In this document: positions 21,691-26,264 of the stretch, one piece after another
Numbering within the stretch: position 1 is the stretch's first letter
Layout: every line of letters starts with the position of its first letter
DNA from: Gammaproteobacteria bacterium
Lineage (GTDB): Bacteria; Pseudomonadota; Gammaproteobacteria; Nevskiales; Nevskiaceae
Assembly (NCBI GenBank): GCA_026398815.1
Contig: JAPLSA010000026.1
Coordinates: 1 to 64,000 of the forward strand
Reading direction: 5' to 3'
DNA: 64,000 nt
The notes under the pieces: model-generated
Database searches by the model: none
Told to the model about the DNA's origin: nothing
The model's input: only the letters and a program-made list of their open reading frames with translations
Made by a program: the position numbers and the translations under genes

Positions 21691-23535
<1,845 letters not shown>

Positions 23536-23687
23536 CTGAATACTCTTGTGTGAAACCGGGGCGCGTGACACCGGTCAAGAACTGCGCAGTTTACCGGAAC
23601 CGGCCTGATCACGGCCAGACCGTGCAAGGGACGTGGGGGCTGCGAGGCCCGCTTAAAGAGCGCTTCGTCGGATCGGCGGCCGGCCGT

Positions 23688-25442
23688 TCAGCCAGTCTGT
23701 TCCGTCATCAGCGCCATCAGTTCGGCCTGTTCCGCGGGCGCAAGTTCCCTGTCGCGGGCGAGATCGAGCAGCGCCTGCTGCCGTTCGCGGACCGCCCGCT
23801 TGCGCAGCAGGCCCAGACAATCAGTGAATTCGGCGCCGAGATCGCCGGTAATCGGCAGCGGCATCGCGCTGATCCGGGCCAGCGCGGCGCCACGGGCGCT
23901 GCCGCGGTTCATTTCCAGCCACTGCGCGGCATGAGCCTCCGGGTTCTCGCTGAAGAACTCGATGGTGTCGAGCAGGATGTCGAGACCGGGCTGGTTCAGC
24001 ATCGCGATCTGGCCCAGATGCTCGGCCCGCGCGGCCAGCGCCGGCTCTTCGAGCAGCAGCTGCAGCGCGATCCGTATCGGCTTGGAACCAGGGGTTTCGA
24101 TGCGCCGGCCACGCTCGCCGCCGCTGTCGGCAGCGGCTGGAGCTGCCTTGCCGGCGGCGGCCAGTGCGGCTTCCAGGTCGTCGCGCTGCATCCGCGTCAG
24201 GGTCAGCAGGCGATCGACGATCAGGGTTCGCAGTGCTCCGTCGCGAAGTTTCTCGAGATGCGGCCTGGCCAGCCCGGGTAGCCGGGCGCGGCCTTCACGG
24301 CTGGCCAGATTGACCTGCTTCAGCAGTTCGTCGAGCAGGAAATCCGATAGCGGCTGGGCAGCATCGATCAGCGCCCGGAAGGCGTCTTCGCCAATTTCCT
24401 GGACCAGCGAGTCGGGATCGTGGCCATCGGGCAGGAACATGAAGCGGCATTCGCGATCGTCGAACACCTCCGGCAGTGCCTGTTCCAGCGCCCGCCAGGC
24501 GGCCGAGCGGCCGGCGCGGTCGCCATCGAAGCAGAAGACCGCGCGGCGCGTCGACTTGAACAGCAGGGTCAGATGCTCGCGGGTGGTCGCGGTGCCGAGC
24601 GTGGCCACGGCATTGCGAATGCCGTGCTGGGCCAGCATCACCACGTCCATGTAGCCCTCGACGACCAGCAGGTACGGCAGTTCCGCCTTCGTCGACTGCT
24701 TGGCCTCGAACAGGCCGAACAGGTTGCGGCCCTTGTGGAACAGCGGCGTTTCCGGGGAATTGAGGTACTTGGCCGGATCGTTCGCGAGCGTGCGACCGCC
24801 GAAGCCGATGGTGCGGCCGCGGGTGTCGCGGATCGGGAACATCACCCGGTTGCGGAAGCGGTCGTAGGCGCCGCCGCCATCGCGCTCGATCAGCAGGCCG
24901 GCATCGAGCGCGTGCTGGCGCTGGCCGTCGGCCTCGGGAAACAGGCGGGTCAGCGCGTCCCAGGATTCCGCTGCGTAGCCGATGTTGAACAGCTTGGCGG
25001 TGTCGCCGTCGAGGCCGCGCTGCTTCAGGTAATCGATCGCCGGCTGATGAGTCTTCAGCTGGCTGCGATAGAACTTCTCGGCGACCGCCAGCGCATCAAG
25101 CGGGCCGTCGAGCACCAGGCGCGGGCCTTCGTTGCCGCCTTCGCGCGGCACTTCCACGCCGGCGCGCTTGGCCAGTTCCTCGACCGCCTCGACAAAGCTG
25201 AGGCGATCGTTCTCCATCAGGAAGGTGATCGCGGTGCCGTTCTTGCCCGAGGAGAAGTCGAAGAACATCTGCTTCGCCGGATTGACGAAGAACGATGCCG
25301 ACTTCTCGTTGGTGAACGGCGACAGGCCCTTGTATTCGCGGCCGGCGCGCTTGAGTTCGACCCGGCTGCCGACGACCTCGACGATGTCGGTGCGCGACAG
25401 CAGATCGTGAATGAAGGAATCGGGGATGCGTCCGCCAGCCAT
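23688..25442 (-). CDS. dnaG: DNA primase lacking zinc-finger ligands
   Basis: Replicative primase, 584 residues, synthesising RNA primers for the replication fork. The N-terminal zinc-ribbon domain is present in outline (YKGLSPFTNEKSASFFV, then MFFDFSSGKNG), but the usual CPFH and HCFGC ligands are replaced: Ser41, Thr44, Asp62 and Ser65. The RNA polymerase/TOPRIM core is normal, with VVEGYMDVVMLAQHGI and CFDGDRAGRSAAWRAL, and a C-terminal helicase-binding domain follows. Zinc-less primases of this type are known in alphaproteobacteria; here the gene is in the usual gammaproteobacterial operon, 152 bases before rpoD. Confidence 0.94.
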   Translation of the reverse strand: MAGGRIPDSFIHDLLSRTDIVEVVGSRVELKRAGREYKGLSPFTNEKSASFFVNPAKQMFFDFSSGKNGTAITFLMENDRLSFVEAVEELAKRAGVEVPREGGNEGPRLVLDGPLDALAVAEKFYRSQLKTHQPAIDYLKQRGLDGDTAKLFNIGYAAESWDALTRLFPEADGQRQHALDAGLLIERDGGGAYDRFRNRVMFPIRDTRGRTIGFGGRTLANDPAKYLNSPETPLFHKGRNLFGLFEAKQSTKAELPYLLVVEGYMDVVMLAQHGIRNAVATLGTATTREHLTLLFKSTRRAVFCFDGDRAGRSAAWRALEQALPEVFDDRECRFMFLPDGHDPDSLVQEIGEDAFRALIDAAQPLSDFLLDELLKQVNLASREGRARLPGLARPHLEKLRDGALRTLIVDRLLTLTRMQRDDLEAALAAAGKAAPAAADSGGERGRRIETPGSKPIRIALQLLLEEPALAARAEHLGQIAMLNQPGLDILLDTIEFFSENPEAHAAQWLEMNRGSARGAALARISAMPLPITGDLGAEFTDCLGLLRKRAVRERQQALLDLARDRELAPAEQAELMALMTEQTG

Positions 25443-25468: not shown

Positions 25469-25915
25469 TCAGCCGAGTCGCGCCTTGATCAGCCCGGACA
25501 GCTTGCCCATGTCGGTGCGGCCGGCGACCTGTGGCTTCAGCCAGTTCATGACCTTGCCCATGTCCTTCATGCCGGCAGCGCCGGTTTCGCTGATGCCCTG
25601 CTGGATCAGCGCGGCGAGTTCGTCCTCGCTCAGCGCCGTGGGCAGATACTGGCTCAGCACGACGATTTCCGCCGCTTCGATCTCGGCCAGATCGAGGCGA
25701 TTGCCGGCGCGGAACTGCGATTCCGAATCGCGCCGCTGCTTGAGCATCTTTTCCAGCGCTTCGATGACCACGGCGTCGGTCAGTTCCTGCGACAGCACGA
25801 CTTCGCGGTTCTTCAGCTCCGCCGTCAGCATCCGCAGCACGCCGAGGCGCGCCTTGTCGCCGGCCTTCATCGCCAGCTTCACGTCTTCGGTGATGCGGGT
25901 CTTGAGATCGGTCAT
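25469..25915 (-). CDS. yqeY: GatB/YqeY domain-containing protein
   Basis: 148-residue all-helical protein homologous to the C-terminal domain of amidotransferase subunit GatB. N-terminus MTDLKTRITEDVKLAMKAGDKARLGVLRML and the C-terminal GMKDMGKVMNWLKPQVAGRTDMGKLSGLIK are characteristic. The ATG at 25915 matches the family start; an upstream in-frame start at 25951 was not used. Between rpsU and dnaG, 26 bases from dnaG. Function is uncertain; binding to tRNA or amidotransferase is inferred from homology only. Confidence 0.9.
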   Translation of the reverse strand: MTDLKTRITEDVKLAMKAGDKARLGVLRMLTAELKNREVVLSQELTDAVVIEALEKMLKQRRDSESQFRAGNRLDLAEIEAAEIVVLSQYLPTALSEDELAALIQQGISETGAAGMKDMGKVMNWLKPQVAGRTDMGKLSGLIKARLG

Positions 25916-25951
25916 CGGGGCACCTGGGAGATAGGGATGCGGAACAAACAC

Positions 25952-26048: not shown

Positions 26049-26264
26049 TCAGTACAGGCGAATCTGCTTCGAAGTCTCGCGGGAGACCTTCTTGGCCTGA
26101 CGCTTCACGGCGGCGGCACGCTTGCGCTTGCGCTCCTGGCTCGGCTTCTCGAAGAATTCCTTCTTGCGGAGATCGGTCAGCACGCCTGCCTTTTCGCAGG
26201 TGCGCTTGAAACGGCGGAGAGCAACTTCAAACGGCTCGTTATCGCGAACGCGGACATTCGGCAT
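26049..26264 (-). CDS. rpsU: 30S ribosomal protein S21
   Basis: 71-residue basic ribosomal protein near the 3' end of 16S rRNA, needed for efficient initiation. [21 protein letters not shown] and the Arg/Lys-rich tail [20 protein letters not shown] are typical. First gene of the rpsU-yqeY-dnaG-rpoD unit and divergent from tsaD. Confidence 0.97.

Follow-up and report, generated by a model that had tools for sequence, protein, structure and literature searches.

The closest described counterparts of the primase reported here are the zinc-binding DnaG proteins of E. coli, G. stearothermophilus (1D0Q) and A. aeolicus (2AU3). It shares with them the order of domains, the TOPRIM acids, the strands of the N-terminal ribbon and many of the residues within this ribbon, but all four of their zinc ligands have been replaced. 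Bacterial zinc ribbons have been lost recurrently, for example in L31 and L36, which occur in Cys-bearing and Cys-free forms, a genome often containing paralogues of both kinds under the control of zinc; in contrast, dnaG is single in the genome studied here, with no zinc-binding copy beside it. A further parallel is glutamyl-tRNA synthetase (GluRS) with a zinc-free pZBD, likewise a housekeeping enzyme, whose zinc domain is without the metal motif in many bacteria; E. coli GluRS furnished with the zinc-free pZBD of B. thailandensis was reported to be as functional as the wild type (PMC4381286). However, GluRS is another enzyme, and one whose zinc-free function was shown by experiment.

The gene lies in a 64,000-nucleotide stretch of DNA from a member of the Nevskiaceae (hereafter the window), where an intact ORF of 584 aa on the minus strand (23688..25442) encodes a replicative DNA primase, DnaG, with a zinc-less N-terminal ribbon. 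In a profile search the protein scored 422.7 bits against the dnaG equivalog TIGR01391 (cut-off 283.6), with domain matches to PF01807, DNAG_N, Toprim and DnaG_DnaB_bind, and it is 52% identical to the P. aeruginosa DnaG core (5vaz_A). The ribbon domain, which binds zinc in other DnaGs, comprises residues 1-105 (25128..25442, minus strand), and the PF01807 profile of the CHC2 zinc ribbon matches it at residues 7-101 with 100 bits (cut-off 24.9). It is followed on the same strand by the RNA polymerase domain including TOPRIM, defined by its profile match and used for our tree (residues 106-412; 24207..25127), and by the C-terminal DnaB-binding domain (residues 457-578; 23709..24074; PF08278, 66.2 bits, cut-off 29.1). 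The TOPRIM acids E262, D266, D306, D308, D342 and D344 are invariant in an alignment of 35 rows from several phyla (A1), and we take their catalytic role to be that known in E. coli DnaG. Beyond this DnaG no second PF01807 match was found in the genome assembly, which is 95.6% complete; with one match only, an extra CHCC (Cys-His-Cys-Cys) DnaG in this genome was dropped from consideration.

The neighbours of dnaG, named by eye, are rpoD downstream (21691..23571), a yqeY-like gene upstream (25469..25951) and rpsU (26049..26264), all on the minus strand and all found beside dnaG in relatives, so that the order reads tsaD on the plus strand, then rpsU, yqeY, dnaG and rpoD on the minus strand. The original prediction had described a rpsU-dnaG-rpoD order; all three genes are indeed present, but yqeY sits between the first two. 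The four genes rpoD, yqeY, rpsU and tsaD accompany dnaG in 27 of the 29 Nevskiaceae loci that had 1.5-kb flanks, the other two being one locus without tsaD and one with rpoD only.

When the protein was aligned to its relatives, the positions of the Cys, His, Cys and Cys ligands were found to be occupied by Ser41 (TCG, 25320..25322), Thr44 (ACC, 25311..25313), Asp62 (GAC, 25257..25259) and Ser65 (TCG), the last within Ser64-Ser65-Gly66-Lys67 (25242..25253), as read from the alignment and the minus-strand codons. The exchange reaches beyond the ligands, since Ser64 and Lys67 correspond to Gly64 and Ala67 in the CHCC rows of Nevskiales. Residues 1-105 contain no Cys and a single His (H12), and thus there is no alternative Cys/His set in the ribbon domain. 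With S-T-D-S in place of the Cys-His-Cys-Cys set and no Cys in these 105 residues, the PF01807 match identifies a DnaG with a ribbon-like domain and not a zinc-binding CHC2 ribbon. These alignments and profile matches bear out what had been read from the letters at first, namely that all four zinc ligands are gone from a ribbon that is otherwise preserved, as is the TOPRIM core. To judge from its residues, the ribbon would be without bound zinc.

This state is not peculiar to one genome. A protein search of 37 Nevskiaceae genomes, that of the window included, gave 35 DnaGs of this type, and the zinc site was missing from every one of them. Position 41 was Ser in all 35, position 44 Thr in 30 and Ser in 5, position 62 Asp in 24 and Cys in 11, and position 65 Ser in 34 and Ala in one; 23 of the ribbons contained no Cys and 12 contained one. 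Since the loss of 41, 44 and 65 is common to all 35 proteins, chance is not an issue. Cys or His was found at 41, 44 or 65 in 0/35 of these DnaGs, while 62 varies between Asp and Cys. The family label of the relatives was inferred from DnaGs identical to those of named records (G025 to Stagnimonas aquatica, L236; G035 to Hydrocarboniphaga sp., L211), and NCBI places the genera Nevskia, Stagnimonas and Hydrocarboniphaga in the Nevskiaceae, Nevskiales. The genus label Nevskia rests in the same way on G004, G009, G011, G013 and G015, genomes of the window's genus whose DnaGs equal those of the Nevskia sp. records L198, L225, L231, L213 and L256, respectively. One Nevskiaceae genome (G006) gave no DnaG match and another (G001) only two distant primase-like matches with a CHCA ribbon. 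Distant primase-like ORFs with this CHCA ribbon were seen in two Nevskia genomes, G010 and G001 (L062, L063, L064), and are perhaps of phage or plasmid origin. We also noted that L259, a record titled Rhodospirillales bacterium, and the Nevskia genome G012 encode identical DnaGs, so the title of L259 looks wrong.

Outside the family the ligands are kept. Five further families of Nevskiales were represented by 24 genomes, and all 24 ribbons read from these are CHCC (among these genomes, L059 and L061 are two pieces of a single one, with the ribbon in L061), and so are the best-matching 29 DnaGs read from other Gammaproteobacteria, which came from a phylum-wide search with a match in 382 of 398 genomes. 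A zinc-less sequence pattern, which recovered 35/35 and 14/14 known zinc-less loci and 0/52 CHCC loci, matched only one of 369 Gammaproteobacteria (272 genera), namely the window's own genome, the sole member of the Nevskiaceae sampled. The original prediction had allowed that most relatives might share the loss; they do within the family (35/35) but not beyond it (0/24 in the five other families), and the survey of the four positions across Nevskiales makes the loss a clade trait of the Nevskiaceae.

We think it very probable that this is an ordinary, single Nevskia DnaG whose ribbon became metal-free by loss in place, a polar set of residues replacing the zinc site. The loss could instead have belonged to a wider economy of zinc in the lineage, as the Cys-free L31 found in three of the five Nevskiaceae genomes examined (G002, G021, G024) might suggest. 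We regard this as unlikely, given that Cys-free L31 is equally common in CHCC relatives (3/5; G038, G052, G056), that Cys is present in both L31 and L36 of the window's genome, and that L36 was Cys-bearing in all nine genomes read, out of ten. There is no sign of a zinc-saving lifestyle in L31 and L36 of the genomes examined. A search for the zinc ribbon of topoisomerase I gave matches in 6/10 genomes, with no relation to the state of DnaG. L31 was also seen to differ within the genus, being Cys-bearing in the window's genome and Cys-free in its congener G002 (L332, L324, L337).

Continued metal binding, be it by other residues of the domain or across subunits, is quite unlikely. Asp62 or Cys62, together with Ser and Thr, could provide ligands, and position 62 is held to these two residues in the 64 zinc-less rows of our tree (25 D, 39 C and nothing else). 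However, a lone Cys is not known to make a structural zinc site, and the Nevskiaceae ribbons have one Cys at most, that of the window having none besides its single His.

In a tree of the catalytic domain (311 columns; 100 DnaGs hand-chosen from 299 entries, with L255 dropped for length), obtained as our other trees by a quick search without bootstrap, the Nevskiaceae (28 rows) form one clade (SH-aLRT 98) inside Nevskiales (95) and inside Gammaproteobacteria (99). Their union with 11 zinc-less rows of other phyla changed the likelihood of the catalytic domain by -61 log units and is rejected (AU p 0.03). The ribbon might have had a history of its own, having been acquired alone by recombination from a zinc-less lineage, and AU tests on its 88 sites reject union neither with the alphaproteobacterial zinc-less ribbons (p 0.096) nor with those of other phyla (p 0.445), which is why we keep this explanation at a low weight. 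Yet when the seven signature sites were excluded, the Nevskiaceae ribbons had mean identities of 0.62 to the CHCC ribbons of Nevskiales and 0.64 to those of other Gammaproteobacteria, against 0.49 to alphaproteobacterial CHCC, 0.47 to alphaproteobacterial zinc-less and 0.47 to other zinc-less ribbons. All 28 were nearer to Nevskiales CHCC than to either zinc-less group, and constraining them with the Nevskiales and gammaproteobacterial CHCC ribbons gave a likelihood 10 units above that of the free search. Because ribbon identity favours the gammaproteobacterial CHCC proteins, transfer of the ribbon alone is very unlikely. The most likely history is a single in-place loss on the Nevskiaceae stem, which has since become fixed throughout the family.

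The disappearance of four defining residues could also be expected of a ribbon that is decaying and no longer needed, but this we hold to be extremely unlikely. In 13 close pairs, hand-chosen among 21 Nevskiaceae rows, dN/dS was 0.03-0.12 for the ribbon, 0.03-0.11 for the catalytic domain and 0.03-0.29 for the C-terminal domain, and the ribbon value was below that of the C-terminal domain in 12 of the 13. Moreover, all 35 rows of alignment A1, which spans several phyla, have G34, G69, F74 and A91, none of which the scan pattern imposes. The ribbon is under purifying selection. It is also predicted to keep its fold, the AlphaFold2 model having block mean pLDDT values of 91-96 over residues 11-80 and four strands as in the model of a CHCC control (L238). 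The modelled ribbon aligned with zinc-binding 1d0q_A over 100 residues (Z 16.4, rmsd 1.9), the VIA-align comparison being a second look at Foldseek matches. Since AlphaFold2 takes no account of zinc and may carry a fold over from relatives, the evidence from the model is weak and shows no more than that the sequence contains nothing at odds with the fold. Among solved structures, the ribbon domain is matched by sequence only in 1d0q and 2au3, each of which has a zinc site.

Replacement of dnaG in place by an alphaproteobacterial zinc-less copy, one of two origins first proposed, has a negligible chance of being right: the ribbon signature of our DnaG is nearly identical to that of some Alphaproteobacteria, as had been noticed from the start (S-T-D-S occurs in families f50 and f63), but the catalytic domain lies inside Nevskiales and its union with 25 alphaproteobacterial zinc-less DnaGs costs 218 log units (AU p 9.5e-108), so that common descent with these to the exclusion of the CHCC Gammaproteobacteria is rejected for this domain under the model used.

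The other origin proposed, parallel loss, agrees both with the in-place ancestry of the catalytic domain and with the existence of several convergent cases, of which that of the Nevskiaceae is one. The zinc-less DnaGs of Alphaproteobacteria and of Bacteroidota and Chlorobiota show a like replacement at 41, 44, 62, 64 and 65, but their branches are separate from the Nevskiaceae on the catalytic-domain tree. Among 220 alphaproteobacterial genomes, 22 matched the zinc-less pattern, 168 a CHCC pattern and 30 neither; a further pattern requires W-S-N at 44, by which Asn and Gln escape it. A scan of genome contigs, whose pattern also requires several other residues, returned at least 118 stretches, and the 80 of these that were read comprised 74 zinc-less and four CHCC loci, one broken in the alignment and one without a DnaG match. 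Outside the Nevskiaceae, the zinc-less loci among the matches listed belonged to Bacteroidota, Chlorobiota, two Verrucomicrobiota, one Paceibacterota and one Omnitrophota, where single metagenome bins may be mis-binned. The zinc-less state is thus not confined to Alphaproteobacteria and one gammaproteobacterium, as it occurs also in Bacteroidota, Chlorobiota and a few records of other phyla. A census of the Bacteroidota phylum, that of a Flavobacteriia genome, was made with a pattern that demanded nothing at 44, 61, 62, 64 and 65 and did not cover 41. Of the 148 genomes, 73 had no match and 75 had 76 matches between them; 37 of these matches were zinc-less and 39 had His44, Cys62, Gly64 and Cys65, with none mixed. 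One 8-kb stretch of a Crocinitomicaceae bin (L264) carries a pair of zinc-less dnaG-like ORFs. Among the open-access titles and abstract openings listed in our literature searches none dealt with zinc-less DnaG, and we make no claim of priority.

The replacement is stereotyped, with S41, a variable residue at 44, C/D62, S64 and S/T65, the exceptions being one Ala64 among the alphaproteobacterial rows and one Ala65 among the Nevskiaceae. Lys67 is present in 24 of 28 Nevskiaceae and 13 of 25 alphaproteobacterial rows, and most alphaproteobacterial zinc-less DnaGs have ND-K where the Nevskiaceae have SP-KQ or NP-KQ. Since the zinc-less pattern of the scans of 369 Gammaproteobacteria, of 220 Alphaproteobacteria and of contigs required W-S-N codons at 41 and 64, the constancy of Ser at these two positions is partly imposed in the scanned sets; the Nevskiaceae DnaGs and 14 zinc-less alphaproteobacterial loci came from protein searches. 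Positions 41, 44 and 65 change together among the DnaGs read, with no intermediates seen among these. On the 100-row tree the state of each of the three changes six times, the same as the zinc state overall, and position 64 also changes six times, with three CHCC rows carrying Ser64; as the root and deep forks are unsure, six is a count on this tree and no proven number of losses. Strict co-change of 64 with the ligands would be too strong a statement. Ser64 is found with an intact zinc site in some CHCC DnaGs of Bacillota, Burkholderiales, Neisseriales and Bacteroidales (L214, L238, L251, L255, L279), which came through a pattern asking for a Ser-like codon at 64, and it is thus not diagnostic. 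The tree requires position 62 to have changed at least 6 times inside the Nevskiaceae, and 12 times when every zinc-less row is taken in, and because of the former number Asp and Cys appear to interchange there. A stepwise path from His61-Cys62 to Phe61 and then to Asp62 was unsupported, since the Nevskiaceae branches that leave first on the catalytic-domain tree carry Phe61 and Asp62 and position 62 has changed so often.

How such a ribbon might work is suggested by the two loops 41-44 and 62-65 that meet at the metal. They carry the polar set Ser41, Thr/Ser44, Asp/Cys62, Ser64 and Ser65, which together with Lys67 probably ties the loops by hydrogen bonds, and the same four-stranded ribbon would then present the template to the catalytic domain. 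The template-sensing role would be retained in the metal-free ribbon, while the initiation trinucleotide may shift, because residue 61 is Phe in most Nevskiaceae (30/35, with His in 5/35) and not His or Tyr as in CHCC Nevskiales. A study of C. difficile DnaG reports that Lys70, beside the zinc site of the ribbon, contributes to the d(CCC) preference of the enzyme, that its change to His lowered this preference and raised d(CTA) priming, and that the corresponding residue is His in G. stearothermophilus and Lys in A. aeolicus (PMC5204125). Residue 61, just before the third ligand, is the only column with His in 1d0q and Lys in 2au3 in the alignments to the window DnaG, and on this ground we map it to Lys70; in our protein it is Phe61 (TTC; 25260..25262, minus strand), located by its codon and the structure alignments. 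It is Lys in all 37 zinc-less and in 24 of the 39 CHCC ribbons of the Bacteroidota-phylum census, and His in 22 of the 25 alphaproteobacterial zinc-less rows. With Phe at a position where mutation altered initiation specificity in C. difficile, a changed start site of initiation in Nevskia is plausible by analogy. It is possible, although we put it forward only tentatively and would sooner doubt it, that the ribbon of replicative primases in bacteria passes repeatedly, and in a single step each time, between a zinc-held state and a metal-free one with a convergent polar lock (S41, C/D62, S64, S/T65, often K67), and that residue 61 is freed in the latter, which would alter the initiation trinucleotide and hence how Okazaki fragments are spaced in the lineage.

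With natural DnaGs that seem to be free of zinc, the part played by the metal in initiation can be addressed directly, and they caution against treating the zinc site of DnaG as a universal feature or drug target. For the Nevskiaceae, the metal-free ribbon appears to be an ancient, functional variant rather than the product of a recent gene exchange, because the loss is common to the relatives within the family and a similar switch is seen in distant bacterial groups; zinc-binding and zinc-free DnaG can here be compared within one order.
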